DNA from: Candidatus Poribacteria bacterium
GTDB lineage: Bacteria > Poribacteria > WGA-4E > WGA-3G
Length of the DNA: 36,725 nt
Assembly: GCA_022821965.1 (NCBI GenBank)
Contig: JAJECN010000048.1
Coordinates: 1-36,725, forward strand
Reading direction: 5' to 3'
Of the stretch, positions 3,888 through 36,093 are shown piece by piece (position 1 is the stretch's first letter; every line of letters starts with the position of its first letter). The notes under the pieces are model-generated. The model was not told where the DNA came from and did no database searches. It saw only the letters and a program-made list of their open reading frames with translations. The position numbers and the translations under genes were made by a program.

Positions 3888-5465
3888 TTACCTCCGTGAA
3901 AGGTAAGGAACGAGTCCTTCAAGTACCTGCGGTAAATCGTCGCAGGGTACATTTTCCAATAGCTTCGGAGCGACTTTAGGGTCTGCCCCAGCATTCCCCT
4001 TGAAAAATACGTCCACCGCATCCGTAACAACCCCATCAATCTTAATCTTCTTGCCGAGCAGTCCGATGTCCGCGGCAGCGTGGTTGCCGCATCCATTAGG
4101 ACACCCAGACCAATGGATCGTCAGGGGTTTTGTATTGCCGAGTTTTGCTTCCAAATGCCGAATCGCTTCCATCGCCCGTTCTTTCGTTTCAATAAGCGAG
4201 AAGTGACAGTAGTCGATCCCCGTGCAACTCACCATCCCGCGCATGATCTCTGACGGGTCATAGCGGAGTTCCTGTAGGAGCGGTTCGGCGGTTAAGTCGC
4301 CTATTTTTGTGTCCGGCACGTTGGTAATAATCAGATTCTGCCCTTGGGTGAGGCGAATGTCGCCGTTCCCGTATTCATCCGCGAGTCGGGCGACCTCAAA
4401 AAGTTGTGCCGTCGTGATACGTCCGACCGGTACAACAAGCCCGATGTAGTTGAGGTGTGGTTGTTTCTGTGAGAAAATACCTGTGTGGTCGGTCTTGCGC
4501 TTACCACGCACATCTTTACCCGCTGTCAGGAGCGGTTGTTTTCGGTGCCGCCGCCTTTCTAATTCTTCCCGGAAGTTTCCTACACCCCAATCCGCAATTA
4601 GAAAAGCAAGGCGAGATTTATTGCGAGCTGTTCGAGGCCCGTGATCTCGAAAAATTAGCGTAATGTCTGCACACAAAACTGCTGCTTCTTCAGGGGTAAT
4701 AAACACATCAAGCGGTTGCGCGAGTGTGTAACCACCAGATCCCATCTTTCCACCAACAGCAACGTTAAAGCCGTTCGTCTCTTGACCTTCAATTTCCTTT
4801 ACAGCCGGCGTAAGGGCAATGTCCTGTGAGGCTGTATGCGTACAGTTATCCAAACATGCCGTGATACCGACATTAAACTTACGCGGAATATCGGTAAATT
4901 CCTTGTTGCCGACAATGAGACTTGTGAACTCCCTGGCAACGTGTGAAGCATCAAAGAGTTCATTGGGTGTTAATCCCGCAACCGGACATCCAATCACACC
5001 ACGAATGTTGTCAAAACCTGTTTGGAGTGAACCTAAACCGACCTCTTCAAGCCGATTCCAGATGTGCTGAACGTTCTCGATTGCGAAACCTCGGAGTTGA
5101 ATCTGCTGACGCGTCGTAAGATCCACGAATCCCGGTCCGTGTGCCTCACTTATTTCGGCAATGGTGCGGAACTGCTCGGAGTTACTAAAACCACTGGACA
5201 TACGGAGCCGCATCATGAATGCGCCAGGGGTCTGCTTTCGGTAAAAGACACCTACCCACTTGAGTCGGTCGCGTTCGTTGGCTGGAATCGATTCCCATCC
5301 ATCCCGAATGTAGTTCGGAATGTCATTGATTACCTCAAGTCCGTTTTTCTGCTGCTTGAGGAGTTCTGCAGCATTTATCTTGGACTTTCGTTTTTTCCCA
5401 GCCGCTGTTGGTGCCGAACGCACCTTTCTGTTTGACAGAACAGTCTTCTTTTTTAATTCGTTCAC
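3888..5465 (-). CDS. nirA: Ferredoxin-nitrite reductase (siroheme, 4Fe-4S)
   Basis: Catalyses the six-electron reduction of nitrite to ammonium with ferredoxin as donor. The 525-residue protein has the usual duplicated ferredoxin-like plus siroheme half-domains. The cluster and siroheme ligands are visible as C414 and C420 (SCTGIDYC) and C455 and C459 (SGCPNGC). The first half carries GVIGCPVAG and the matching fold. The Lys/Arg-rich first 30 residues are extra relative to the family core. The start is GTG at 5463-5465, supported by a strong AAGGAGG seven bases upstream. It follows a 360-base leader with a terminator, so expression is probably gated by NasT. A sulfite reductase is the closest alternative; linkage to narK and narB favours nitrite. 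Confidence 0.93.
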   Translation of the reverse strand: MNELKKKTVLSNRKVRSAPTAAGKKRKSKINAAELLKQQKNGLEVINDIPNYIRDGWESIPANERDRLKWVGVFYRKQTPGAFMMRLRMSSGFSNSEQFRTIAEISEAHGPGFVDLTTRQQIQLRGFAIENVQHIWNRLEEVGLGSLQTGFDNIRGVIGCPVAGLTPNELFDASHVAREFTSLIVGNKEFTDIPRKFNVGITACLDNCTHTASQDIALTPAVKEIEGQETNGFNVAVGGKMGSGGYTLAQPLDVFITPEEAAVLCADITLIFRDHGPRTARNKSRLAFLIADWGVGNFREELERRRHRKQPLLTAGKDVRGKRKTDHTGIFSQKQPHLNYIGLVVPVGRITTAQLFEVARLADEYGNGDIRLTQGQNLIITNVPDTKIGDLTAEPLLQELRYDPSEIMRGMVSCTGIDYCHFSLIETKERAMEAIRHLEAKLGNTKPLTIHWSGCPNGCGNHAAADIGLLGKKIKIDGVVTDAVDVFFKGNAGADPKVAPKLLENVPCDDLPQVLEGLVPYLSRR

Positions 5466-5578
5466 CTTTGAACCTCCTTAGCATGGCTGTTGGTCATCGG
5501 TCATCAGTTTTCGGTTAATATCCTATGGCAGTCAATTTTTGGGTTGCTATCACCCATGGTCTCTGACTGACAACTCAT

Positions 5579-5626
5579 AAAAAAAGGCATCTATCAGCGA
5601 GTATAAAACTCAGCCAGATAGACACC
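5579..5626 (-). terminator. Intrinsic terminator inside the nirA leader (attenuator)
   Basis: On the minus strand a stem pairs GGTGTCTATC with GATAGATGCC (10 bp including two G-U pairs), with an internal loop and a GAG/CTC top. It is followed directly by seven T residues. It lies about 115 bases upstream of the nirA start and downstream of two other hairpins, so it would stop transcription before nirA unless antiterminated. No gene lies between it and nasT, and nasT ends 200 bases earlier, so it is not simply the nasT terminator. Confidence 0.8.
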
Positions 5627-5636
5627 TGTGTCCAGT

Positions 5637-5718
5637 CCCAAACCACCATTGGTTGGGTATCGTCAATATAACCTGCCCGTAGAGCCGAGGGGATTTGGTC
5701 TTTAAATAGACCAAATCC
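5637..5718 (-). promoter_or_regulatory. Tandem hairpins in the nirA leader, probable ANTAR (NasT) RNA target
   Basis: Read on the minus strand, the first hairpin (5691-5718) has a perfect stem GGATTTGGTC/GACCAAATCC that can extend one pair to leave hexaloop ATTTAA. The second (5637-5657) has a stem CCCAACC/GGTTTGGG with one bulge and hexaloop AATGGT. Known ANTAR targets are two stem-loops with hexaloops carrying A at position 1 and G at position 4. The second loop fits fully; the first has A1 but U at position 4. The attenuator terminator begins 10 bases further on, and nasT is the adjacent gene. Confidence 0.7.
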
Positions 5719-5827
5719 GTTCCTTGTATTACATTCCTTGCCCCTACTGAGCAAAATAAGCAATTCTAATGTGCCCGCGCTGTTCCCCCTTGAACACACG
5801 CAGTTTCAGTGAGAATGGATATCCCAC

Positions 5828-6457
5828 CTATAATTTATTCGTCAATACTTCCGCAACCGATAGTATGTCTTCCGAGATTTCTGCCAGACGTTTCCTACGG
5901 TTCATCGCCATCTTTCGCAAAATTTGATACGCCTGCGCTTCGTTACAGCCGCGTTGCTGTGCTACCAGTTCCTTTGCGCGTTCGATGATTTTGCGTTCGG
6001 CAAGGCTTGTCTTTGTCTTCTCAAGTTCCTGTTGTAACGCTCGGAATTCATAAAATCGAGCGACAGCTGCTTCAATAATGGTTTTAACTCGGGCACCAGT
6101 AAGTTTTCCGACAGCATACGCGGACACACCGGCGCGCGTCGCGGCTTGGATCGTTTCCGATCGCTCATCTCGTGAAAACATGACTGTCGGGCATGGATAA
6201 CTTTCGTGGAGAGACGCGACCCAACTGAGTATCGCGTGCCCCGGAAAATCGACACCAACCAGTATAATGTCTGGCTTTACCAGTGCAACTTGTTCAGCCA
6301 CACCTTCCTGTAGACGCACAGGCACAGCAACTTTGTAACGACTGGCTTTCAGAATATCGATTAAAGAATTCGCCCGCTCCGGATTGTTATCAATGATTAA
6401 GACTCGCCCCTTCCCAGTAACAGGTGGGGATTCCGGTGTTGAGGTGACCGTTTCCAT
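5828..6457 (-). CDS. nasT: NasT-like ANTAR-domain transcription antiterminator
   Basis: A 209-residue protein with an N-terminal receiver-like domain (about 17-125), a helical linker (130-155) and a C-terminal ANTAR RNA-binding domain (about 145-203, with SLAERKIIERAK and AYQILRKMAM). Proteins of this family bind paired RNA hairpins and block a terminator ahead of nitrate-assimilation genes. The position expected for the phosphoacceptor Asp is Gly68 (ILVGVDFPG), so control by phosphorylation is unlikely. In known cases a nitrate-binding NasS protein sequesters NasT; no NasS is in this window. The ATG start has AAAGGGTAGAGG just upstream. It lies directly upstream of the structured nirA leader, on the same strand. 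Confidence 0.88.
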   Translation of the reverse strand: METVTSTPESPPVTGKGRVLIIDNNPERANSLIDILKASRYKVAVPVRLQEGVAEQVALVKPDIILVGVDFPGHAILSWVASLHESYPCPTVMFSRDERSETIQAATRAGVSAYAVGKLTGARVKTIIEAAVARFYEFRALQQELEKTKTSLAERKIIERAKELVAQQRGCNEAQAYQILRKMAMNRRKRLAEISEDILSVAEVLTNKL

Positions 6458-6623: not shown

Positions 6624-6729
6624 ATGTAAATTTTTGCCTATTTTTTTAGCAGAAAACAGGCGTTTTTTCCTATTTTTTTAGCAATAAGGAGTTTATGAGA
6701 ACGTCATCACGCTGCGCCTTACATGAACG

Positions 6730-7395
6730 TTATGCCTCGCGACGCACGGTGTAAATACAAACTTCGCAGATTTGCCCATCTAATGTGACAGGACAGATAG
6801 ATTTTTGATGGACAAAACCGTTATCGCAGAGTTGTTTGAAAAATCCAATCGCGTTACTTCGGCTCGGTTCGGAGAAGAGGGCAACCCCGTTAGGCGCGAG
6901 ATACCCTTGAAGTAAATTCACGATCGGTGTCCAGTGATGTTCTTCGTAAATAACATCGGCAGCGAGAATATACGGAAATTTGTGATTGAAGCAGGGCGCG
7001 TTCCAATCCATCTGGACGAAATCGGCATGCTGGTGAACACCGTTCTGATCTGCGTTATGTTGTGCGAAACGGAGTGCCTCCCGTTCTGCGTCCGTGAAAA
7101 TCACCCGCGCCCCCATCTGACAGGCGACAATTCCTGTCAATCCAAACCCACATCCAATTTCCAAGATATGTGAACCTTTTAGCCGCTCACCTATCTTCTC
7201 TATGTGGTGCGCAAGACCAATCGAAGATTCCCAGAGGTAGGTCCAGTAGGGGAGATAGAGTTTTCCTTCCTTGTCCTCTCGACCGAGTTGTTCGAGAAAC
7301 CAATCGGGTTCTTCTATAAGTGTGAGCTGGACCCGACCGGTTTTCAACTTAATGATGGTACTTGTTAGTGGGTAGTCTCGCAGTTGGATTTTCAT
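6730..7395 (-). CDS. Class I SAM-dependent methyltransferase (Methyltransf_16-like)
   Basis: A 221-residue soluble methyltransferase. The SAM-binding motif I is ILEIGCGFGLTG, followed by an acidic residue at the end of strand 2 (FTDAE) and motif IV LAADVIYEEHHW. The pre-motif YWTYLWESSIGLA resembles the METTL21/ETF-beta lysine methyltransferase group, which methylates protein lysines; the actual substrate is unknown. The ATG at 7393-7395 is chosen because the longer frame (to 7656) would run through the end of the neighbouring PurM-like gene. It is last in the cluster with the PurM-like and DUF6785-type genes, 82 bases after the former, with a terminator downstream. Confidence 0.82.
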   Translation of the reverse strand: MKIQLRDYPLTSTIIKLKTGRVQLTLIEEPDWFLEQLGREDKEGKLYLPYWTYLWESSIGLAHHIEKIGERLKGSHILEIGCGFGLTGIVACQMGARVIFTDAEREALRFAQHNADQNGVHQHADFVQMDWNAPCFNHKFPYILAADVIYEEHHWTPIVNLLQGYLAPNGVALFSEPSRSNAIGFFKQLCDNGFVHQKSICPVTLDGQICEVCIYTVRREA

Positions 7396-7451
7396 TTCCG
7401 TTATGACTTTCCAAACCAGATGCGATGCAAAGATACGCTGTCCGACGTAGG

Positions 7452-7478
7452 GTAGGGGTTGGGTTACCCAACCCCTAC
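7452..7478. repeat. 27-base perfect palindrome between the PurM-like and methyltransferase genes
   Basis: GTAGGGGTTGGG and its exact reverse complement are separated by only TTA, giving a 12-13 bp snapback stem. It begins at the stop codon of the PurM-like gene. It is not followed by a T tract on the minus strand, so it is not a standard terminator. It has the same near-loopless design as the palindrome at 35109-35135 but a different sequence, and looks like a REP-type intergenic element. Confidence 0.75.
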
Positions 7479-8497
7479 TACAAAAGCTTAGCGATCTCGT
7501 CCGTCTCAAAAATAGGTAGCGGTTGTCGTGTACCAATGGTATCTTCCAACCACAGTCCATGCTCAACTGGCAAAAACTCTCCGATAATGTCGGCGTTGAT
7601 ACCAGCCGCGCCGAGGGCTTGGCAGATTGTTTCGCCTTTTTCAGGTTCCGATGCAATTAACATAGCACCAGACGAAATAACACCGAGCGGATTGAGTCCA
7701 AACATATCACACAACGTCCGTGTTATATCGCCATACAATAGGGGCGAACCCAACAGTTTATCTGAATAGACAATCACTCCTAACTCAGATGCAGTTGCCA
7801 ACTCATACACGGCAGTTGCAACACCGCCCTCTGTGACATCGTGCATAGCGTGTACACCGCCGGTGGCGATCGCAATTTGTGCATCTTTTAGGACGGAAAT
7901 TCCGGGATCCATGAGATAATTCTTCGCTTGTTCCAAGAATAGGGCATCGCACTTTTCACGCAACGGCTTTTCACACTCACGCGCGATGATCGCAGTGGCT
8001 TCAATGCCAAGTCCTTTTGTGAGAATCAGGACATCCCCTACGCAGGCATCCGTCGAAGTGAACAAGGCGTTTTTGTGGGTAACCCCCATCATCTGTCCTA
8101 TAACAACGGGTTGTGTTACGGCTGGCGTAACTTCGGTATGTCCACCACACAGCGCAATGTCGAACGCCGCACACGCCTGCGTGAGTTGTGCCATAATATC
8201 GCGTACCATTGCAGGTGTCGTTGCGTCTTCGGGTAACAGCAAGGTTACCAACAACCATTTCGGTACAGCCCCCATCGCTGCAATGTCGTTGCTATTGACG
8301 CATACCACATACCATCCAATATCTTCAGTCGCAAAGGTAATCGGATCACTGGTGGCAACGAGGTAGTTGTCCCCTAACGCAATGACAGCGGCATCTTCAC
8401 CAAGTTGTGGACCGACAACAACATCTGCGTTTCTATTGTACGTGGGTAGAAGTTCTTTTAAAAAATCGTGTTTCAGTTTCCCAACAGGCAGATTCAT
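7478..8497 (-). CDS. AIR synthase-related (PurM/HypE-like) ATP-binding protein
   Basis: A 339-residue member of the PurM/HypE/ThiL/SelD fold. Near residue 30 is GEDAAVI, then DPITFATEDIGW and NSNDIAAMGA, which match the metal/ATP-binding N-terminal strand and loop of HypE and PurM; CGGHTEVTP and HDVTEGGVA are further family motifs. Such proteins bind ATP and activate a carboxamide or similar substrate. HypE itself ends in a Cys that carries the cyanide ligand; this protein ends EIAKLL, so it is not a functional HypE by that test. The ATG at 8495-8497 starts 11 bases after the membrane-protein stop, which implies cotranscription. The longer open frame overlaps that gene and was discarded. The substrate is unknown. 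Confidence 0.8.
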   Translation of the reverse strand: MNLPVGKLKHDFLKELLPTYNRNADVVVGPQLGEDAAVIALGDNYLVATSDPITFATEDIGWYVVCVNSNDIAAMGAVPKWLLVTLLLPEDATTPAMVRDIMAQLTQACAAFDIALCGGHTEVTPAVTQPVVIGQMMGVTHKNALFTSTDACVGDVLILTKGLGIEATAIIARECEKPLREKCDALFLEQAKNYLMDPGISVLKDAQIAIATGGVHAMHDVTEGGVATAVYELATASELGVIVYSDKLLGSPLLYGDITRTLCDMFGLNPLGVISSGAMLIASEPEKGETICQALGAAGINADIIGEFLPVEHGLWLEDTIGTRQPLPIFETDEIAKLL

Positions 8498-8508
8498 ATT
8501 TCTCGCTT

Positions 8509-10437
8509 TCAAATAAAAATCTTGTAGGTCCGCAAGCCGAGTGTAGGTCCAATGATCGCCCAAATACTCCCAATGACGTAATCGCCTAAGATTAGTCCTA
8601 AAAAGAGTGGCGCGACCTGACGATGCAGCTTCAAACCTCCGTGTCGTAAAATCATTAACTTCAAAAACCACGCCACAAAGAAGGCAAACCAGAAGTAGTC
8701 CATCGCGAAACTGATTGCCAGCGCGTAGCCCGCCGGGTGGAAGGGCCACCACAAGAAATGCATCCGCATATACATCATCACAAACGTCAGAAGCGCGCCG
8801 ATGCCCATAAAACCGATGCCGACCATATTCGGCTCGGTTGGATTATGTAACCACCGCTGGAGCCGACCGAACGACTCTCTGCCGACCCATCCCTTGAATC
8901 CACCCGCCTTCGCCACGGCACCATTTCGGAAGGTGATGTCAAGATTTGCCCAAAAAGTCGCTAAAATACCGATAACAATAGCGATCAGCATCGCTACCCA
9001 TAAACGTCGGTTGCCCATTCCGGTCGATTCCGCCAACTTGAACGCCTCAATTTGATTCGGCATCGGGTGATTGCGGTAACCACGATTAAACCAATAGAAC
9101 AGCGACATAATGGTGAGGCTACTCGTATCAAACTGTCGAGTCCCACTCACCGTCGCCAACATATCGTGCGGGTTGACATAGTAAATCTCATGCGGTGTGC
9201 CGAGTTCCGCCCGGACACGAGTGATAGCAAAGGAGAGGAGAAAATAAACACCAAAGAAGACCCCCGCAACCCATAACGCCATTCCCGCTATAGAGGAAAA
9301 GATACCGAGCGCGACAAGCGATCCGAGAATTCCTAAGAATGCGGCACGATACGGCATCGGTTCGTCCGAATCATCAAGACGCGATTTGAACCCGAACACC
9401 TTTTTCAATACCTCACTCAAGTGCCGCCGCGTGACCCAAACTGCAAGTAAGAAGAGCGCAACCCACGCGCCATACGCCTGTTCGTTCAACGCCGGAAAAT
9501 AACGGGTCCCAAGCGCAGCGGCGATCACAAATTCTGCTAAACGCACAACAAAGAAAAACCAACACGAGAAGGAAAGGTCCAAGGGCAGGAAAAATGCTAA
9601 CCCGACAGCAAATGGATAGACAGAGATACGGGTTCCACGAATAGCACTCCACGGACGATCAGTGAAAATATCTCGGAATACGGCGGTCCGTTTGATATAA
9701 GGAATCTCTGGAAACTGCGGGAAAAGGTAGTGAATCCCGTTAATCACGCCGATGGTTACAGCAATGCTGAAGCCAACCCACATCATCCGATTCTTCAGCA
9801 AGAGGATTCCGCCATCTTCTGAAAGTCGAAGCGGGAGTTGGATAATCGGATACGCCAGTTTCTCCTGTTCCGCCCACCGTTTCCTCACAAGTGTATTGAT
9901 GCAAAGCATCATAAACATCATAATGAGGAAAAAAAGCCCCCAGAATACCAACGGTTTTGCCCAAATAGAAAAGTTGCGCTTTGTATAGAAGGTGGCTTCG
10001 CCCTCATAAAAGCCTTGTAGACTCTGTGCGTCGGAAACGGTGAGCCACGTCGGTAGATACCGAAAAAAGAGTGCCTGCCACTCATTCTCTTCTGTCGCAA
10101 ATCGGAACGGATGCGCGATACTACCGAACATATTTTGCATCGTGTCGTGTCCGGCAAATGTGCAGGAGATTGCCACCATGATGTAGATAGCAAGCAACTC
10201 ACCCTGCTGTAGCATCTGTCGAGGGGCAAGACGTTTCAACACGCAGTTAGCGACAACACAAACGAACATAATAAAAACGGGCTGAATAAAAAGGGGTAGG
10301 CACGAACCATCAAGGGAGTAGTACTTTACCTCAACAATCGTCATCCAGTAGACATTGATCGGAATAAATAAAATACCTAAGAGAAGCGAACGTCCAGTAA
10401 TGCGCGCTGATAGGATTGAAGTTTTTTGTTCATTCAT
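8509..10437 (-). CDS. Polytopic membrane protein, DUF6785/DUF6784 type
   Basis: A 642-residue membrane protein with roughly 14 hydrophobic segments spread from residue 15 to the C-terminus. A soluble loop lies between about 430 and 480 (contains GTPHEIYYVNPHD and GTRQFD). Tryptophan-rich stretches and RAELGTPHE recall the DUF6784/DUF6785 proteins common in Planctomycetes and Poribacteria, whose function is unknown; an oligopeptide-transporter-like role is only a guess. The ATG at 10435-10437 is preferred over an upstream TTG at 10446; AGGGG lies 12 bases before it, which is long spacing. It is the first gene of the three-gene cluster ending at 6730. Confidence 0.75.
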   Translation of the reverse strand: MNEQKTSILSARITGRSLLLGILFIPINVYWMTIVEVKYYSLDGSCLPLFIQPVFIMFVCVVANCVLKRLAPRQMLQQGELLAIYIMVAISCTFAGHDTMQNMFGSIAHPFRFATEENEWQALFFRYLPTWLTVSDAQSLQGFYEGEATFYTKRNFSIWAKPLVFWGLFFLIMMFMMLCINTLVRKRWAEQEKLAYPIIQLPLRLSEDGGILLLKNRMMWVGFSIAVTIGVINGIHYLFPQFPEIPYIKRTAVFRDIFTDRPWSAIRGTRISVYPFAVGLAFFLPLDLSFSCWFFFVVRLAEFVIAAALGTRYFPALNEQAYGAWVALFLLAVWVTRRHLSEVLKKVFGFKSRLDDSDEPMPYRAAFLGILGSLVALGIFSSIAGMALWVAGVFFGVYFLLSFAITRVRAELGTPHEIYYVNPHDMLATVSGTRQFDTSSLTIMSLFYWFNRGYRNHPMPNQIEAFKLAESTGMGNRRLWVAMLIAIVIGILATFWANLDITFRNGAVAKAGGFKGWVGRESFGRLQRWLHNPTEPNMVGIGFMGIGALLTFVMMYMRMHFLWWPFHPAGYALAISFAMDYFWFAFFVAWFLKLMILRHGGLKLHRQVAPLFLGLILGDYVIGSIWAIIGPTLGLRTYKIFI

Positions 10438-16221: not shown

Positions 16222-18462
16222 TCACTTCTGAATCAACATTTTCTTGGTGGCGGTGAATTCGCCTGCTGTGAGGGTATAGAAGTAGACACCGCTCGCAACA
16301 GGTTCGCCTATCTCATTTTTACCATCCCAATATGCTGCACGGTTCCGAGATTGATATGTCCCTATGGCTTGCTGTCCTAATGCTAATGTCCTGACTAATT
16401 TTCCATCGGCTGCGTAGATAGATATGGTGACCTTTGCAGGTTCTACCAATTGATAAGGTATCCATGTTTCCGGATTAAACGGGTTTGGATAATTCTGCGA
16501 CACGGACGTTTCTGCATTGGGCAACAACTGCATAGGTGCCGCCCCAGTTTGCTGTGGTTGTGGGTATTCCCAGAGTAATATTGTGCCGTCGCGACTTGCA
16601 CTGGCGAGCGTGGTGCCGTCCAGATTGAAAGCGACACTTGAGACACCTTCCGTGTGTCCGATGAGCGCTGCATGCGGAGTGAAAGTCGTGATATCCCATA
16701 AACGGACTGTTTTATCCCTATACCCACCACTACTCGCGAGAATCCTACCATCAAGACTAAAAGCAACACTGCGGACACCAGCACCACGCCCGCCTATATG
16801 TCCTGTAAAAGTCACCACCTTTGCTCCGTTGATAGCATTCCACAGCGTCAATGTGCCATCTCTTTTTCCGCTGGCGATTGTTTTTCCATCCGGACTGAAC
16901 GCGATGCTGTCAATGGATTGCGTATCTATTTCACCAATTTTGTAAGGTCTGGTAGAGATGTCCCACAACCGTATCCCTAACCAATCTCCGATTGCGAGCG
17001 TATTTCCATCTGGATTGAACGCGACACTTGAAACCTCGCTTGCCCCTCCAATAAATGTAGTTTTGTGGTTGCCAGTGTCAACATCCCAGAGGCAGACTTT
17101 TTGGTCGCGCCCTGCACTTGCGATTGTTTTTCCATCCGGACTGAACGCGACGGTATAAATAGTGCTCCAATGCCCAAAGAGGGTATTTTTAAGTGTGCCA
17201 GTGGTAGCGTCCCAGAGTTTCACAGTATGATCGTCGAAACCTCCAGCCGTTGCGATTGTCTTTCCATCCGGACTGAACGCGGTAGATTCGATATAACTAA
17301 TATGTCCAACGAGGGTAAGACTGTTGTTGCCGGTGGCAATGTCCCATAATCTAAGTTTTAGATCCGAACTACCGGTTGCAAGCGTGTGCCCATCAGGACT
17401 AAAGGCGATACAAGAAACATTTGACAGATGTCCATTAATCGTGATTCTTGAGTCCAAACTAACGGTGTCCCAGAGTCGCACGGTGCCGTCGAAACTACCA
17501 GTTGCGAGTTGGTATCCATCCGAACTAAAGGCAACACTCCCAACGGCATCCGTATGCGCAACGAGCGTTGTTTTGTAAGTTCCGGTTGAAACATCCCACA
17601 GACAGACCGTGCCATCATCACTTGCACTTGCGAGCGTTCTGCCATCCCGACTGAAGACAACGTGGTTGATGCCCTCTGTATGTCCGGTGAGCTTTGCTTT
17701 CAGTTCACCGGTATTAACATCCCAAAGTCGGATCGTTTCATCTATCCATCTGCAACCCGCTGCGAGTGTCTTACCGTCTGGACTAAAGGCGACAGTACTG
17801 ATATCCTCTGTATGTCCAGTGAGCGTAATTATGTGTTCGCCAGTGGCGACATCCCACAATTGTAATGAATTGTCTAATTGTGGTGAATCGTAATCATAAT
17901 CTCCACCGCTTGCGAGCATTTTTCCGTCTGGACTGAAGGCAATACTATTGACATGGTATATGTGTCCCATGACTGTTATTTTGTGTCTTCCGGTGTTAAC
18001 ATCCCAGAGTCGAACAGTGTTGTCGCTGCTTGCACTTGCGAGGTATCTTCCATCCGGACTAAATGTAACAGCGTTAACCCACCGTGTATGCCCTGAGAGC
18101 GTAGCTTTATGTGTTCCGGTGTTGACATCCCAGAGCCGTATTGTATTATCTTCGCTACCACTTGCGATTGTATTTCCGTCTGGACTGAAGGCGAAGCTCC
18201 AGATGAGATCCGTGTGTCCCGTGAGCAGATTCTGTTCTTTACCTGTTTGCGCATCGTAGATCCAAATCCCGATGGAACTCGCGACAGCAAGCAGGTTGTT
18301 ATCTGGAGAAAATGCGATGTTTCCAGATATCCAACCTTTCCCAATACGGGCTTTAGCACCTGTCGGTAACCCCCATTTTCTGTAATCTTGGGCGGAGGTA
18401 TTTGGTAAAAATAGGACTGAAACCATAAGTAGCGTTATGATCGGCAATAGTTTGGCTTTCAT
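16222..18462 (-). CDS. Secreted WD40 protein with two predicted seven-bladed propellers and an FlgD-like C-terminal module
   Basis: A 746-residue exported protein. The signal peptide ends near NTSA (residue 24). I count 14 WD40 units (repeated AFSPDGKT...A.G...D.T..LWD), enough for two seven-bladed propellers. The last 90 residues carry NYPNPFNPETWIPYQL, then VRTL and GVYFYTL, the FlgD-Ig/T9SS-type module found on many Poribacteria-like surface proteins. Propellers of this kind usually serve as interaction platforms; no enzyme motif is present. The ATG has AGGAG eight bases upstream. It follows a longer paralog by 75 bases and probably shares its sigma-54 promoter. Unlike the paralog it lacks a dockerin. 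Confidence 0.88.
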   Translation of the reverse strand: MKAKLLPIITLLMVSVLFLPNTSAQDYRKWGLPTGAKARIGKGWISGNIAFSPDNNLLAVASSIGIWIYDAQTGKEQNLLTGHTDLIWSFAFSPDGNTIASGSEDNTIRLWDVNTGTHKATLSGHTRWVNAVTFSPDGRYLASASSDNTVRLWDVNTGRHKITVMGHIYHVNSIAFSPDGKMLASGGDYDYDSPQLDNSLQLWDVATGEHIITLTGHTEDISTVAFSPDGKTLAAGCRWIDETIRLWDVNTGELKAKLTGHTEGINHVVFSRDGRTLASASDDGTVCLWDVSTGTYKTTLVAHTDAVGSVAFSSDGYQLATGSFDGTVRLWDTVSLDSRITINGHLSNVSCIAFSPDGHTLATGSSDLKLRLWDIATGNNSLTLVGHISYIESTAFSPDGKTIATAGGFDDHTVKLWDATTGTLKNTLFGHWSTIYTVAFSPDGKTIASAGRDQKVCLWDVDTGNHKTTFIGGASEVSSVAFNPDGNTLAIGDWLGIRLWDISTRPYKIGEIDTQSIDSIAFSPDGKTIASGKRDGTLTLWNAINGAKVVTFTGHIGGRGAGVRSVAFSLDGRILASSGGYRDKTVRLWDITTFTPHAALIGHTEGVSSVAFNLDGTTLASASRDGTILLWEYPQPQQTGAAPMQLLPNAETSVSQNYPNPFNPETWIPYQLVEPAKVTISIYAADGKLVRTLALGQQAIGTYQSRNRAAYWDGKNEIGEPVASGVYFYTLTAGEFTATKKMLIQK

Positions 18463-29427: not shown

Positions 29428-32415
29428 TTATTTTTCTGCAAGCGAAATGTGATATATCCCGCGATCTTTGATAGCACTATAGAGCTTATCGTTAATGACG
29501 GCGAGATCAACAGTTTCACCGAGTGCTTCTGAAGAAATTTGTTTCCATTGATTACCGGTATCCAAGCGATAGACTCCGATATCGCTAATGCCACAGATTG
29601 TAGTACCAGCCACAGCAAATCTGTCTATGATAGGACGCGTACCCGCGCTATTGGTTAGCACGCGCCAGTGCGCGCCAGTTTCTGAGCTTAACACACCTTC
29701 GTCTGTTGCGACATAAACTGTTGAATCTGCAAAGGTTATCTCCTTGAAACGGGTAAAGTGAAGCGGTAGGCTTGGCGTAACATCTCTCCAGCTGTTCCCG
29801 CCATCAAGCGACTGAAACAGCTTACCATCGCGTTTCCCGACATAGATGGTTTCTCCCAAAACCGCTAATTTGAGATCCTGGCTGTCGTTGTCATAAGACT
29901 GTTCGCTTCTGTCTGTTAATCCTGTGTTTGTCCACTCCGGATCACCAAGTTTCCACTTAAAAAGTCTACGGTCCTGCTCAGCATAGAACACATCGTTACA
30001 GACTGCGACCATTCTGGCTTTCGTGTCCTTCCCACGTATAGGAGGTGGAACGATTGGAATGGTTGCGTGATGCACTTTTTCAGAACCTTCAGATAGGTAA
30101 GTCTCTTTCGCTGCCTCGCCACTTGTCTCTAACTTACCGAACAGTGCTTCATCATCAAAAGCGGGCATGCTTTGAATAGGACTTTGTATATTGCCATCTG
30201 TGGATAAGCGGAAAATTCGCAAGTTGTCATCTTTAGGTGAAATAAAATAAAGATTGTTGTTATCAACCACCAATTTTGAATCAAAAGAGGTATAGACACG
30301 AGTCCTATCCGGCCCTAATGATTCAGTACAAGTCACCTTCAGAAAAGGTATCTCGGCAATTGAGAGATCTTTCCAAGACACACCTTCGTCAGTTGATTGA
30401 TACAGCGCGAAGCCATTATGCGCGTATAATCTGTTGTTGCAGGCAACCAAATCCTGTAGCCTTGTTCCCACCATCCCATCTGTAAGTAGGCGCCCCGACT
30501 CCCCACCATCAGTTGTCCGGAAAATACCGAAGGGTCCAGCTTTGTAAAATGTATTCTCATTCACCACCACAGATGGAAGCCTATTAACCATGAGCATATC
30601 CGTATCTCCTACCATTTCTGTCCACGTTTGTCCGTTATCTGTTGAACGATATCGGTACTCGGCAGTCGAAGCTAAGAGGATTTCACGTCCAGCCGAAATC
30701 ATCATGCCCGCTGGTACCACTCGATCATCGGATTTATAATTGGGTGTTATTTCAGTCCATGACGCTCCGAAGTCAGCCGAATGGAAGATCTTAATCGCAT
30801 ACGACTCAATTTTTGGCACTTCTTGTTCTATTCCTATTGGCGTGAATCCCAACAGCTCCGGTCCTGTCCCAATGTAGAGATTCTTCTCAAACACCGCCAA
30901 GGAGTAGATGGCTCTTGACATCTCCACCGGCAATTTTTTCCAAGTGTCTGCATTGAGACGGTAGAGACCGCGCGCTGTACCCGCGAACACTGTTTTTTCA
31001 ACAGCGGCGACTGTAGAAATTGTTTTGCTTGCTAATCCATCGTTAAATGAGTTCCATTGTGTGCCGCCGTCTGTGGATCGAAAAATTCCTTCATCTCTAA
31101 GCGCAAGATACATCGTCCGACGTGCGTGCGAGCTGCGCGCTTGTGCCTCATCAATAATGATGAGTCCAACGGCTTGTCCCTTTGGTCTGGGACCAATCGT
31201 CCGCCATGTTTCACCGCTATTATCTGAAGTAAATATTTCATCGGTGGATACTATGTAAAGGATACCATCATGTTCTGCCATCGGCATTAGCGATTTACCA
31301 ATTGGAATATCCGTGTTGATGCGTGTCCACGTTGTCGCATCTGTTCCTAATCTGTATATTCCTGTCGGGGCAACAGCATAGACGGTCCCTTCAGATGTAG
31401 CGAAAATGTCGCGGACGTGTCCCCCTGGTGGCGCGCCTCCCTGCGTCCACCGCCCGGTAGAAAATTTGGCAGGGTCCTCTACAGATGCTGTCGTAGTTGT
31501 AGAGACTTGTGTGCCGGTGCCACTGCTTTTACCGACAGTAGCAGCCTGTCCAACTCGGTTTCGTACCGCTGGTTTTGCGGTAATATTGAGAATGATAGGT
31601 GTGTCAATGATTTCAATAGTAGGTTCAGATTGTGCTTCAAAACTGTACGGTTTCTGAAAACGCACAAGATATTGGGCACTCGCACCGAGTAGCAACATGA
31701 CCAGGACAGCAGCAGTTCCAAAAGCCGCCCATGGCAGCAAAGGCTTACCAACCGGAGGCGGTGTCGGTTTCATATTAGCGACTTCCTGCATGATACGCTC
31801 AGTTACTCGGGCAGGGAATGGAATACTCCCAAGTGTTTCGCTAACCAAAAATTCTTCCTGCTGTTCCTGTAAACGTTTCCGACCCCGGCGGAGTCGACTC
31901 TTAATCGTATTCACCGACACCCCTAAGTATTTTCCGATCTCCTTCGCGGTCATTTCGCCGAGATAGTGGAGTGTCACCACCGTACGTTCACTCTCCGGGA
32001 GTTTTACCAGAAGTTTTTTGACGAGTTCATGGCGATTTTCGGTGGTCTCTGTCAGCCGTTGTTCCGATACGTGATGTGTGTAAGAAGATTCTTCGATTTC
32101 TTCCACAGGTGTGTCCTCAAATGATTGCATCACAGATTTGTTCTTTATGTTTTTTTCAAGCCATTTAAGGCAAAGCCGATTGGCAATTACGTAAATCCAT
32201 CCGGAGAACTGCTTCGGATTCCTGAGCTGCGCGAGGTTCTTGTATACTTGGAGGAAAGTGTCTTGGGTAATCTCCTCGGCAATGTGGAAGTCACCGACTT
32301 TTCGCCATGCAAGGGCGTGAATACCCTTTTGGTGCTTTCGGACTAAAACATTAAATGCCTCATCATTCCCTGATAAAATTCTACGAATTAGTTGAACATC
32401 GTTTTCTTTTTCCAT
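29428..32415 (-). CDS. Transmembrane ECF sigma factor fused to an extracytoplasmic BNR-repeat propeller
   Basis: A 995-residue fusion. Residues about 9-88 are sigma region 2 (EEITQDTFLQVYKNL, FSGWIYVIANR) and about 130-183 region 4 (LPESERTVV, TAKEIGKYLGVSVNTIKSRL). A short linker leads to one membrane helix (about 227-251), then about 745 residues outside. That part carries at least seven Asp-box/BNR motifs (for example SDNSGETW, STDGGTQW, STDNGQTW, SLDGGNSW), fitting one or two beta-propellers. The helix would place the sigma domains in the cytoplasm and the propeller in the periplasm or outside, so it may sense a surface ligand directly, with or without proteolytic release. The ATG has GGAG seven bases upstream. 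No anti-sigma gene is adjacent. Confidence 0.85.
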   Translation of the reverse strand: MEKENDVQLIRRILSGNDEAFNVLVRKHQKGIHALAWRKVGDFHIAEEITQDTFLQVYKNLAQLRNPKQFSGWIYVIANRLCLKWLEKNIKNKSVMQSFEDTPVEEIEESSYTHHVSEQRLTETTENRHELVKKLLVKLPESERTVVTLHYLGEMTAKEIGKYLGVSVNTIKSRLRRGRKRLQEQQEEFLVSETLGSIPFPARVTERIMQEVANMKPTPPPVGKPLLPWAAFGTAAVLVMLLLGASAQYLVRFQKPYSFEAQSEPTIEIIDTPIILNITAKPAVRNRVGQAATVGKSSGTGTQVSTTTTASVEDPAKFSTGRWTQGGAPPGGHVRDIFATSEGTVYAVAPTGIYRLGTDATTWTRINTDIPIGKSLMPMAEHDGILYIVSTDEIFTSDNSGETWRTIGPRPKGQAVGLIIIDEAQARSSHARRTMYLALRDEGIFRSTDGGTQWNSFNDGLASKTISTVAAVEKTVFAGTARGLYRLNADTWKKLPVEMSRAIYSLAVFEKNLYIGTGPELLGFTPIGIEQEVPKIESYAIKIFHSADFGASWTEITPNYKSDDRVVPAGMMISAGREILLASTAEYRYRSTDNGQTWTEMVGDTDMLMVNRLPSVVVNENTFYKAGPFGIFRTTDGGESGRLLTDGMVGTRLQDLVACNNRLYAHNGFALYQSTDEGVSWKDLSIAEIPFLKVTCTESLGPDRTRVYTSFDSKLVVDNNNLYFISPKDDNLRIFRLSTDGNIQSPIQSMPAFDDEALFGKLETSGEAAKETYLSEGSEKVHHATIPIVPPPIRGKDTKARMVAVCNDVFYAEQDRRLFKWKLGDPEWTNTGLTDRSEQSYDNDSQDLKLAVLGETIYVGKRDGKLFQSLDGGNSWRDVTPSLPLHFTRFKEITFADSTVYVATDEGVLSSETGAHWRVLTNSAGTRPIIDRFAVAGTTICGISDIGVYRLDTGNQWKQISSEALGETVDLAVINDKLYSAIKDRGIYHISLAEK

Positions 32416-32551: not shown

Positions 32552-33274
32552 TTAAAATTGCTTCAAATTTCCCCATGTTGTTGCCAACTTGGTTTGGGGT
32601 GCTACAGACAATCCACCTCTATTTGGAATGCCGGGCCCCGTGATCTTGAGATTATCAAATCTCGCCGTATAATTGGCGAGACCTAACCCTATTCTACCGG
32701 TCGGAAAGTCAGGAAATCCATGTAAGGGTTCTAATATGATGGGATCCAGAACCTGCTTCCCATTTATCCAAAAGATCAAACGCTTTCCATGAACAGCCAG
32801 CTTGAAAGTTGCCCATTTCCGTAACTTCAACAAAGGATGGGGTTTCTCATCGTAGGTTAAAAATACGTCGCCATGCAAGTTACCGGCGAAACATTCTGCC
32901 ACCGGTCCTGCTGCGGGGTCCTCCACTATGCGACATATTACGCCCCATGGTACTTCCCATTTTCTTCTAATCCGTGTAGCAATTGCGATATTCCCACCAG
33001 GACCATGGCTCTCAAGTGGTTTAACATCAAATTCAACGTCATAATCTTGCCACGTCTCTTCCCCAATCGTAAGAAGACGCGTGACACCACCGGTATCATG
33101 TATTGCCTGAAGTTCACCATCAACAATTTCCCAATTGCCGGGAGCATCAATACCAAACATGACTAATTCTTGCCAATTGTCTAATTTTCCGCCATCAAAG
33201 GTTTCGGTGAACGTCCCTGCCAAGGCGGAGAAGGGCAGGAAAAAGATCCCTAATCCGATGAGTGCTAATTTCAC
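32552..33274 (-). CDS. Secreted LamG/DUF1080-like protein, tandem copy 1
   Basis: A 240-residue exported protein. A signal peptide (IGLGIFFLPFSALAG) precedes a concanavalin-like domain with ETFDGGKLDNWQ, YDVEFDVKP and the strand pair RLIFWINGKQVLDP, as in the LamG and DUF1080 (3-keto-disaccharide hydrolase-like) groups. It probably binds or acts on carbohydrate outside the cytoplasm. The C-terminus ends TKLATTWGNLKQF, shared with the next two copies. The start is GTG at 33272-33274 with GGAGG six bases upstream; the longer frame to 33385 overlaps copy 2. This is the most diverged of the three copies and the nearest to the sigma-factor gene. Confidence 0.8.
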   Translation of the reverse strand: MKLALIGLGIFFLPFSALAGTFTETFDGGKLDNWQELVMFGIDAPGNWEIVDGELQAIHDTGGVTRLLTIGEETWQDYDVEFDVKPLESHGPGGNIAIATRIRRKWEVPWGVICRIVEDPAAGPVAECFAGNLHGDVFLTYDEKPHPLLKLRKWATFKLAVHGKRLIFWINGKQVLDPIILEPLHGFPDFPTGRIGLGLANYTARFDNLKITGPGIPNRGGLSVAPQTKLATTWGNLKQF

Positions 33275-33360
33275 TAATTTCCTCCAGTAAAATTGCCAAA
33301 ATTCGGCAAACGCTTGGTTACTTAGTACCTTAATATGAACCAAATATAAAAGATATTTCT

Positions 33361-34119
33361 CTAAAACTGCTTCAAGTTTCCCCAAGTGGTTGCGAGTTTT
33401 GTTCTCGGTGTTACAGATTTTGGAATATCGTCCCCGGTGGTGATGCTAAGGTTATCAAAAAGCACAGAGTAATTTGAGACTCCGAAACCGACTTTACCGT
33501 TCGGATAGTCAGAAAACAGAAACTCGCGCTCCTGTACTAAAAATTGCTTCGCTTCTAAAATTACGGGTCCGAGAACTTGCTCGCCATTAATCCAAAATGT
33601 CAAGAGTTTTCCATGAACGCTCAACTTCAGGTGAGACCAACGCCCCACGCTTAAGGAGCGATAAGGTTTCCTTTCATAGTGCAGAAAAGCATCTCCATCC
33701 AGCAAGCGACCCCCAAAACAGAGAGCCATGGATTTAGGTTCGGGGATCGGCGTGTCCCCAATTGTACAGAGGACTCCCCACGTCCGATCTTCTTGGTTCT
33801 GATGAACCCGCGATGCAATCACAATATGGGCAGGTCCATGTTTTTGGAGCGGCTTAACGTCGACCTCAATATCGTAATCTTCCCACTCTTCATCCCCGAT
33901 CGTAAGTAAACGCGTTACACGGTCATCATCTTTTATTAAAGATTGAAGGTGACCGTCAACAATTTTCCAAGAACGGGGAACAAGAGGCCCGAAACCTAAT
34001 ATTATTAGTTCCTGCCACTGTTCTATAATATCTCCATCATCAAAAGTTTCCAAAAACACCTCTGCCCCTGCGGAACAGGTTAGGATAAATATGCCCAATC
34101 CAATGCTTAAGGCTTTCAT
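33361..34119 (-). CDS. Secreted LamG/DUF1080-like protein, tandem copy 2
   Basis: A 252-residue paralog of the flanking genes, closest to copy 3. The signal peptide is MKALSIGLGIFILTCSAGA, followed by VFLETFDDGD, YDIEVDVKPL and LLTFWINGEQVLGP. It has the same TKLATTWGNLKQF end. Compared with copy 3 it carries a short insertion near residue 205 (FLVQEREFLFSDY). The ATG at 34117-34119 has AAGGA eight bases upstream; an upstream TTG at 34137 is rejected. No catalytic motif is evident, so a carbohydrate-binding role is as likely as an enzyme. Confidence 0.8.
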   Translation of the reverse strand: MKALSIGLGIFILTCSAGAEVFLETFDDGDIIEQWQELIILGFGPLVPRSWKIVDGHLQSLIKDDDRVTRLLTIGDEEWEDYDIEVDVKPLQKHGPAHIVIASRVHQNQEDRTWGVLCTIGDTPIPEPKSMALCFGGRLLDGDAFLHYERKPYRSLSVGRWSHLKLSVHGKLLTFWINGEQVLGPVILEAKQFLVQEREFLFSDYPNGKVGFGVSNYSVLFDNLSITTGDDIPKSVTPRTKLATTWGNLKQF

Positions 34120-34290
34120 GATGTTATTCCTTTCCAATATAATTTCCGTTTTATTTTCAAACTCACGTTACTCGAGCTTTTTTATAATTCTCGAGCTCTT
34201 TTATAATTAAAGATACGATTTTGAGGTAGAAAGGGTGCATAACCGGAGAATATACCAAACACAACAGTAAAATGAACCCTTAATATGCCC
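34120..34290. repeat. Duplicated intergenic segment between LamG-like copies 2 and 3
   Basis: The segment from about 34193 to 34243 (GAGCTCTTTTATAATTAAAG, then a stretch ending GGTGCATAAC) recurs at 35191-35243 upstream of copy 3 with few changes. Two CTCGAG-TTATAA units occur within it (34173-34205). The part at 34245-34290 recurs at 32505-32551. Gene duplication therefore carried its flanks with it. Confidence 0.65.
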
Positions 34291-35040
34291 TTAAAACTGC
34301 TTCAAGTTTCCCCAAGTGGTCGCAAGTTTTGTTCTCGGTGTTACAGATTTTGGAATATCGTCCCCGGTGGTGATGCTAAGGTTATCAAAAAGCACAGAGT
34401 AATTTGAGACTCCGAAACCAACTTTACCCCTCGGATAGTCAGGAAACTCAACCTCCATGTGTTCAAATTTTTTCGCTTCTAAAATTACGGGTCCGAGAAC
34501 TTGCTCGCCATTAATCCAAAAAGTCAAGTGTTTTCCATGAACACTCAACTTCAGGTGAGACCATTTTTTCACGCTTAAGGAAGGATAAGGTTTCTTTTTA
34601 TAATCCAGAATAGCCACTCCATTCGGCAAGCGACGCCCAGAACAGCGAGCCATGGATTTAGGTTCGAGCATCGGCACGTCTCCAATTGTACAGAGGACTC
34701 CCCATGTCTGATCTTTTTTGGTCTGATGAATCCGCGAGGCAATCACAATATGGGCAGGTCCATGTTTTCGGAGCGGTTTAACGTCAACTTCAATATCGTA
34801 ATCTTCCCACTCTTCATCCCCGATCACAAATAAACGCGTCACACGATCAGCACCAATTACTAAAGACTCAAGTTGACCGCCAACAATTTTCCAAGAATGG
34901 ACACCGGGAGGTCCATGGAATATTGTCAGTTCCTGCCACTGTTTTATAATATCTCTATCATCAAAAGTTTCCAGAAACACCTCTGCCCCTGCGGAACAGG
35001 TTAAAATAAATATGCCCAATCCAATGCTTAAGGCTTTCAT
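34291..35040 (-). CDS. Secreted LamG/DUF1080-like protein, tandem copy 3
   Basis: A 249-residue exported paralog, highly similar to copy 2: the first 25 residues are the same signal peptide and the last 60 are nearly identical. It has the concanavalin-like motifs ETFDDRD, YDIEVDVKPL and HLTFWINGEQVLGP and the TKLATTWGNLKQF tail. The middle differs more (residues about 40-60 and 130-150), suggesting diversification of the ligand face. The ATG at 35038-35040 has GGAG upstream. It is the first gene of the tandem set in the direction of transcription toward the sigma-factor gene. Confidence 0.8.
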   Translation of the reverse strand: MKALSIGLGIFILTCSAGAEVFLETFDDRDIIKQWQELTIFHGPPGVHSWKIVGGQLESLVIGADRVTRLFVIGDEEWEDYDIEVDVKPLRKHGPAHIVIASRIHQTKKDQTWGVLCTIGDVPMLEPKSMARCSGRRLPNGVAILDYKKKPYPSLSVKKWSHLKLSVHGKHLTFWINGEQVLGPVILEAKKFEHMEVEFPDYPRGKVGFGVSNYSVLFDNLSITTGDDIPKSVTPRTKLATTWGNLKQF

Positions 35041-35135: not shown

Positions 35136-35300
35136 AGTGGGCGGACCTTAAGGTTTACCAGAAACTTGTATAAGCCCTACTCATGTTCCTCGAGCTCTTC
35201 TATAATTAAAGATACTATTTTGAGAGGGAAAGGGTGCATAACTTAGAAAAAAATAAAAAAGCACCCGAAATTTTCAATAATTTCTCACATCACCCGCAAA

Positions 35301-35448: not shown

Positions 35449-36093
35449 CTAATTTGGTTCCTGAGGAGGTGTAGATTCTTCGGGAGGTTCTAAAGCCTCT
35501 TGTGCGCGCTCGATCTGTTTCCTTGCGTGCTCAAGTTGCCCCTTAGCACGTTCAACTGTCTCTTCACTGCTTTCGATGGTGAGTTTAGCGCCCTCTTCAA
35601 TCTGTGCTTTGGCGTGTTCAACTGCTTCAATCTGTTCTGCAGCTTCCCTGAGCGTGGTGTGATCGTTTACCAACTTCTTGATATAGGAGGCTTTATAAGT
35701 TTCCCAATCATCTGTTGGTGGAATATCCAGTATTCCTGACTGTCTCAGATCCTGGTTGTCTTCAAGAAGTGCCAAAGTGTGCCGCTTTGAAAGGTAAGAG
35801 ACATATTCGTGGAAATTTTCTATGATGATGCCTCTATCCAAAAGTATCTGAAGCCATTCCGCCCGCGGATACCTTGCATCTATCTCACTCGTTGTAAAGT
35901 TACTTCTGTAACTTTCAGTTTCTATACCGCTACCCTTACGAGCACTTACTTTGACTTTTGGGCATCCCTTATTGTAACCCTCATCTAACGCTTTCATCAG
36001 TTCCTGTACGTTTTGGGGACCGGTATACTTTTTATCGCTGGCGGGTGTTTTCCAGTTGAATTCAATGCGTTCACGGAACACAGTGCGTTTCAT
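35449..36093 (-). CDS. Hypothetical protein with a C-terminal coiled coil
   Basis: A 214-residue soluble protein that I do not recognise. The N-terminal 130 residues look globular (contains WKTPASDKKYTGPQNVQEL and ARYPRAEWLQILLDRG). Residues about 145-200 are a Glu/Lys/Gln-rich helix with heptad character (AAEQIEAVEHAKAQIEEG, AKGQLEHARKQIERAQ), followed by a Pro/Glu tail. There is no signal peptide or membrane segment. The ATG has AAGGAG nine bases upstream. It stands alone between repeat-rich gaps, and codon use looks like its neighbours. Confidence 0.7.
   Translation of the reverse strand: MKRTVFRERIEFNWKTPASDKKYTGPQNVQELMKALDEGYNKGCPKVKVSARKGSGIETESYRSNFTTSEIDARYPRAEWLQILLDRGIIIENFHEYVSYLSKRHTLALLEDNQDLRQSGILDIPPTDDWETYKASYIKKLVNDHTTLREAAEQIEAVEHAKAQIEEGAKLTIESSEETVERAKGQLEHARKQIERAQEALEPPEESTPPQEPN

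Follow-up and report, generated by a model that had tools for sequence, protein, structure and literature searches.

A one-piece transmembrane ECF sigma factor with an Asp-box propeller, and its many paralogues, in Candidatus Poribacteria

Can a single protein carry a signal from outside the cell to the choice of promoter? This question is raised by a locus of Candidatus Poribacteria, which are major uncultured sponge symbionts. In the Poribacteria papers that were searched in full text, the word sigma was absent and these sigma factors were unmentioned. The window, the whole stretch of 36,725 nucleotides that was analysed, is contig C53 of a 5.7 Mb genome; no RNA elements or tRNAs were found within it. 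An earlier note had described one open frame that holds a complete ECF sigma factor, a single membrane helix and an outside Asp-box part. The frame is indeed unbroken over 995 residues and lies on the minus strand, which had not been given. It has the following parts.

29428 to 32415, minus strand: coding sequence of a 995-residue transmembrane ECF sigma factor with an Asp-box propeller ectodomain (open reading frame, Pfam, AlphaFold2)
32149 to 32346, minus strand: sigma region 2, residues 24-89 (Pfam Sigma70_r2)
31870 to 32028, minus strand: sigma region 4, residues 130-182 (Pfam Sigma70_r4_2)
31741 to 31857, minus strand: conserved cytoplasmic linker, residues 187-225, a predicted helical hairpin (family conservation, AlphaFold2, dN/dS)
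31654 to 31740, minus strand: single transmembrane helix, residues about 226-254 (hydropathy and AlphaFold2)
31531 to 31653, minus strand: conserved extracytoplasmic juxtamembrane stretch, residues 255-295, FQ.PYS..A.SE...EI.DAP (order-wide conservation)
29440 to 31449, minus strand: Asp-box beta-propeller ectodomain, residues 323-992, with a fold nearest to GH74 xyloglucanases (Pfam, AlphaFold2, Foldseek, profile search)

A Pfam domain search identified both the sigma and the outside parts. Sigma70_r2 matches residues 24-89 (5e-12) and Sigma70_r4_2 residues 130-182 (1.4e-16), while TIGR02937 (sigma70-ECF) gives 93.4 bits against a cut-off of 42.9. The N-terminus consists of regions 2 and 4 without a long region 3, as is characteristic of ECF factors, and retains all core motifs of both regions. 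Only one hydrophobic segment lies above the hydropathy threshold (residues 226-244), and AlphaFold2 places a helix at 233-254; both overlap the membrane helix suggested earlier at 227-251. The positive-inside signal at this helix is weak. The AlphaFold2 model, built from 62 aligned family members (mean pLDDT 73, pTM 0.60), has sigma helices at 6-183 and a short helical hairpin at 188-214, followed after the membrane helix by disorder to about residue 320 and beta sheet at 336-991.

Asp-box and propeller families in Pfam match residues 393-990, and the ectodomain holds six complete Asp boxes, compared with 0.02 expected from shuffled versions of it. The Asp-box character of the outside part was thus borne out, but its folded domain begins near residue 323 and not at 260. 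Among solved folds, Foldseek ranks the GH74 xyloglucanases 2cn2, 2cn3 and 6p2m best, with a TM-score by target of up to 0.56, and a profile of the ectodomain alone retrieves the same GH74 entries by sequence. The GH74 fold consists of two seven-bladed propellers. The architecture finds support, as does the idea that one protein could couple an outside signal to the choice of promoter.

The window protein belongs to a large family. Its genome contains 76 matches to sigma region 2, and 53 of these are members of the same sigma family; the linker, helix and juxtamembrane stretch are common to the window protein and 39-40 paralogues. A survey of 85 genomes of the phylum found 2-61 copies in each of 38 genomes of the same genus, 14-41 per genome in a second genus of the same family, and 0-3 per genome in the rest of the order. 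No copies were found in other classes of the phylum at the sensitivity used. The order-level relatives that were read are mostly one-piece sigma-transmembrane proteins whose outside domains are of the Asp-box, WD40 or carboxypeptidase-regulatory-like type, and they retain FQ.PYS..A.....VEI.DAP just outside the helix; a few of these loci are cut short or have no sigma part in the stretch read.

Sensor parts vary widely within the genome of the window. By model scan, the ectodomains of the 53 members include 22 of the Sortilin/DUF6242 (Asp-box) type, 6-7 WD40 and 7 PD40. Further kelch-like, LRR-like, two-component-regulator-propeller and M16-protease-like types were named by reading the sequences, except where a neighbour had been domain-scanned. 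Thirteen of the 53 members have no helix by the hydropathy threshold and keep the sigma part, and some of them carry the same propeller. For example, in C13_9136 and C13_12059 (L030:3757-6567 and 6680-9526), which adjoin a third family member with a helix, the sigma part is joined directly to an Asp-box propeller. Other helix-less members lie at C59_71439 (L029:10921-12645) and on C16 (L011:3432-4628 and 4875-6080), where the sigma frame passes an RBS-like site without a stop into the ATG of the next gene; at C59_71439 this read-through ends in a DnaN-like sliding clamp. The window also encodes a 746-residue sigma-less protein (16222-18462, minus strand) that is 30-41% similar to the WD40-type ectodomains of other members.

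Members of the family share a predicted promoter, TTATGCAMCCTTTT-N11/12-GCGTC..TA. ECF-type promoters carry a -35 element with an AAC-like core and a -10 element with a CGTC-like core, and the shape of this element is that of ECF promoters generally. It was noticed by reading upstream regions. Since a first search by regular expression missed many members, a bipartite matrix (TTATGCA[AC]CCTTTT, a spacer of 11-12, GCGTC[AT][CT]TA) was trained and scored by leave-one-out; it was applied to selected stretches, and genome-wide scans were made by pattern only. Upstream regions exceeded the 99% quantile of dinucleotide shuffles in 35 of 52 cases and fell below it in 17. In the whole genome, the exact pattern has 17 matches, compared with 0 for the backward pattern; a scan with three mismatches was uninformative by count (251 matches against 280 in the control), and only matches with 0-1 mismatch were used. 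The matrix, although trained on the genome of the window alone, scored above 20 for 47 of 83 family upstream regions from other Poribacteria and for none in reverse-complement or reversed controls. Part of this similarity can be inheritance, as upstream DNA may have been duplicated along with the gene. Variation in the spacer and in the distance to the start, together with the presence of the element before unrelated genes, argues for a functional promoter, and the sigma part is probably active at this cognate, predicted ECF-type promoter.

The predicted -10 variant goes with the clade of the sigma factor: mapped on a tree of 84 sigma domains, the two types (GTCAC and GTCxTT) require 5 changes against a shuffled mean of 16.5, and none of 500 shuffles gave a value as low. 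Where the element precedes a gene outside the family but close to a sigma gene (22 cases), its -10 is more like that of the nearby sigma gene than expected (6.6 of 8 against 5.5, p = 0.0016). An unusual GACATA -10 is found both at the divergent sigma C42_131185 and at its neighbour C42:135561. A cluster of elements on C23 (L213/L159/L160) carries the otherwise rare -10 GTCCTT before genes for a glycosyltransferase, an ABC ATPase and a type IV leader peptidase-like protein. In a tandem array on C61, a small STAS-like protein of the anti-sigma-antagonist type (C61:157205, L031:1001-1339) lies behind several copies of the promoter.

Two rival readings were also weighed. A sigma gene and a separate surface-protein gene might have been joined by an error of sequencing or assembly, as the earlier note had allowed for. 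This has practically no chance of being correct: about 40 paralogues in the genome have unbroken fused linker-helix frames, the same fused copies occur in the single-contig genomes G005, G009 and G021, and eight orthologues of the window protein are 67-79% identical overall, so that the error would have had to arise in tens of independent copies across many genomes. The sigma part might otherwise be a degenerate, non-functional remnant on what is mainly a membrane-anchored surface propeller. The very large copy number and the relaxed ectodomains fit such decay, as do a member that appears truncated (C43_159856) and the run of C59_71439 into its unrelated DnaN-like neighbour. Against the eight orthologues, however, dN/dS rises from 0.05-0.11 in the sigma part through about 0.09-0.16 in the linker to 0.31-0.39 in the ectodomain, which makes the sigma part the most constrained portion of the protein. 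With the core motifs of regions 2 and 4 all present and the promoters matched to the sigma factors, a remnant is very improbable. When the window gene is paired with L069-L073, synonymous divergence amounts to 0.65-1.25 in the sigma part and drops to 0.37-0.46 in the ectodomain of the same pairs, which suggests that the N-terminal half has been swapped between paralogues.

The surroundings of the sigma gene point to possible targets. The relevant features of the window are as follows.

34205 to 34242, minus strand: predicted ECF-type promoter, TTATGCACCCTTTC-N12-GTATCTTTAATT, before the secreted gene at 33361-34137 (pattern and matrix)
35204 to 35241, minus strand: second copy of the same predicted ECF-type promoter, before the gene at 34291-35040 (pattern and matrix)
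34291 to 35040, minus strand: secreted LamG-like/3-keto-disaccharide hydrolase-like protein, probable target (open reading frame and domain scan)
33361 to 34137, minus strand: secreted LamG-like/3-keto-disaccharide hydrolase-like protein, probable target (open reading frame and domain scan)
32552 to 33385, minus strand: third LamG-like protein, directly upstream of the sigma gene (similarity and the shared C-terminus TKLATTWGNLKQF)
35449 to 36093, minus strand: gene in the slot between the ABC-2 permease gene and the sigma operon of orthologous loci (locus comparison)

No promoter copy lies directly upstream of the window sigma gene; the nearest (34205-34242) is two genes up. The third LamG-like gene is separated from the sigma gene by 136 bases, and no terminator-like sites were called between the LamG-like genes and the sigma gene. 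We infer that the sigma gene would be co-transcribed from the 34205-34242 promoter. Six orthologous loci, in six genomes, have the order element, ABC-2 permease, gene, extra genes in some (LamG) and sigma, and in most of them a copy of the element also stands immediately upstream of sigma; in the window locus, the permease would sit past the end of the contig. Elsewhere, the element precedes genes for ABC ATPases, ABC-2 permeases, a MacB-like permease and an MsbA-like exporter, as well as for secreted proteins of the LamG, PD40, WD40, C-type lectin and regulator-propeller types. Secreted proteins near family loci, namely at 32552-35040 (minus strand) in the window and at C17_2451, C43_149955 and C57_212721, share the C-terminal tags TKLATTWGNLKQF, TTMWGKLKRK and LYTSWGTLKAQ, which are possibly a sorting signal. 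Por-type sorting domains without the Por machinery have been noted in Poribacteria by Kamke et al. (PMC3909097).

Many sensors have a sigma-less relative nearby. Within 10 kb, a sigma-less homologue of the C-terminal domain is found for 17 of the 53 members, against a permuted mean of 2.7 (maximum 9 in 5000 permutations), and for 15 of the 30 non-Asp-box members, against 2.0 expected. Most of these neighbours begin with a signal-peptide-like sequence, and several (C27:232790, C57:51078 and C42:135561) lie behind the same promoter. In the sigma-less neighbour C42_104225, the signal peptide is recognisable as the family linker and helix by profile search (E = 1.6e-7), a conversion that supports an outside position of the C-terminal part. 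The start of the C41_38982 propeller had also been considered as such a remnant, but the same search gave no significant match there, and C42_104225 alone passes. No sigma-less homologue of the window propeller was found among the sampled reading frames within 10 kb, and most Asp-box members likewise have none nearby.

On balance, we consider it somewhat probable that the window protein is a membrane-tethered, autoregulated ECF sigma factor with a local regulon, and that it is released by proteolysis; sigma-domain activity, repression while tethered, ligand sensing and proteolytic release are inferred. The linker and the single helix would keep the sigma domain (residues 1-186) at the membrane's inner face, with the outside propeller as the sensor or as a partner under regulation. 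Once a signal reaches the outside domain, a regulated cut near the conserved juxtamembrane stretch, followed by site-2 cleavage within the helix, would set free the sigma domain as a soluble piece of about 25 kDa. Together with RNA polymerase, this fragment would act at promoters of the class TTATGCAMCC..-GTC.. and raise expression of its own operon plus a small number of genes close by; in the window these would be the genes for secreted LamG-type proteins, and at orthologous loci the operon of an ABC-2 exporter. About 40-50 such circuits with different sensors may run in parallel in the genome. The single site-2 protease found there (Peptidase_M50), together with the conserved juxtamembrane stretch, suggests release by regulated proteolysis. 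Against this model are the 13 helix-less members that keep the sigma part, the 17 upstream regions below the promoter cut-off, the position of the nearest promoter two genes away from the window sigma gene, the share of promoter similarity that may reflect duplication, the weak positive-inside signal, and the fact that no anti-sigma domain was recognised in the window protein by Pfam and TIGR search that could explain a tethered off-state.

Another possibility is that the sigma factor works while still tethered. An outside signal would then change the conformation of the linker, and RNA polymerase would be recruited at the membrane without cleavage, in parallel with the one-component membrane regulators CadC and ToxR. 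Consistent with this, the linker hairpin is conserved and predicted to be structured, no specific protease gene adjoins the loci, and the existence of helix-less members with the same sigma type and promoter suggests that release from the membrane is not always needed. However, the short outside segment after the helix is conserved across the families of the order and resembles a processing site more than a sensor, and IutY, a one-piece ECF factor studied experimentally, is activated by Prc/RseP cleavage (PMC8999054); action without cleavage is unlikely. A rather better, still minority chance goes to feedback through a tethered copy, where the outside part would be a membrane-held copy of one of the circuit's own export products, whose fate or occupancy, and not a free ligand, would be reported by the sigma factor. 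The excess of sigma-less homologues near the sensors, strongest for the non-Asp-box members, the signal-peptide-like start of most of these homologues and the shared promoter of several favour such copies. Nevertheless, the window protein and most Asp-box members have no such neighbour, and the pattern could also stem simply from the capture of new sensors from an adjacent gene. In its broadest form, also held tentatively, two Poribacteria genera would run genome-wide, one-protein circuits in which a mobile sigma-linker-helix module is fused to a copy of a secreted or surface protein encoded next door and, by way of its particular promoter subtype, activates its neighbourhood (the exporter, the secreted homologue and itself). 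If this is true, the cell would keep track of the surface proteins that it exports, or of the ligands of these, through tens of parallel, self-contained channels.

In each genome, the family supplies tens of candidate circuits that lead from the outside to a promoter; since a predicted promoter and local targets come with every one of them, signal, sensor and output can be paired from sequence alone. What is new is the shared ECF-type promoter before the family genes, nearby ABC exporter genes and secreted-protein genes; what is unusual is the scale, the possible tethered-copy arrangement and the absence of a recognisable anti-sigma domain. As a natural set in which one sigma-transmembrane module is combined with many sensors, the family is suited to the study of how a tethered sigma factor might be kept inactive without such a domain, and the module may serve as a one-gene sensor scaffold.

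Usual ECF systems split sensing and sigma function between proteins, as the earlier note stated, but one-piece transmembrane ECF factors are already known, such as ECF52 (SCO4117) and IutY (PMC8999054, PMC5826349), together with ECF48 and ECF53 (PMC8999054). In ECF52 factors such as SCO4117 of Streptomyces coelicolor, a zinc-finger anti-sigma domain, a helix, a proline-rich stretch and a carbohydrate-binding module follow the sigma domain (PMC5826349). ECF52 has been described as exclusive to Actinobacteria, with evidence of positive autoregulation and a proposed activation by removal of the C-terminal part (PMC5826349, PMC8999054). The window protein likewise joins a sigma domain, a subsequent helix and a large outside domain on one chain. 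It differs in having an Asp-box propeller in place of the carbohydrate-binding module and proline-rich stretch, in its occurrence in Poribacteria, where the family reaches about 60 copies per genome, and in the absence of a zinc finger (ZAS) between sigma domain and helix. A ZAS domain in the linker was considered and gave no match to zf-HC2; all seven zf-HC2 matches of the genome lie in other frames, and the linkers are not clearly alike.

IutY (ECF243) of Pseudomonas putida is a sigma factor fused to a FecR-type anti-sigma domain; it is activated by Prc and RseP proteolysis, and its partner is an outer-membrane siderophore receptor (PMC8999054). The fusion of a sigma factor to a membrane-bound part is common to both proteins, whereas the window protein has no FecR family match by Pfam and TIGR search, unlike IutY and other FecI-FecR fusions. 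ECF57 of Planctomycetes has WD40-like C-terminal extensions and two conserved cysteines that link sigma2 and sigma4, and a protein-interaction model has been put forward for it (PMC8999054). It shares with the window protein an ECF sigma domain and a C-terminal propeller; residues 1-190 of the latter contain a single cysteine, Cys82. On the zinc finger, the FecR domain and the two cysteines as judged from sequence, the Poribacteria family is filed under none of ECF52, IutY and ECF57. The ectodomain, in turn, resembles GH74 xyloglucanases as an Asp-box propeller with these as its nearest solved folds; the identity is only 13-17%, and no enzyme activity is claimed. Similar in organisation are the SigI/RsgI biomass sensors of Clostridium thermocellum, which form autoregulated paralogous circuits with promoter signatures particular to each sigma factor (PMC4711584), and whose RsgI anti-sigma factors are cleaved by RseP (PMC12203970). 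In both systems, a genome holds several paralogous sigma circuits, and each of these has a binding domain outside the cell. In SigI/RsgI, the sensor is carried by a separate anti-sigma factor and SigI is the sigma factor, whereas in Poribacteria sigma factor and sensor form one chain.
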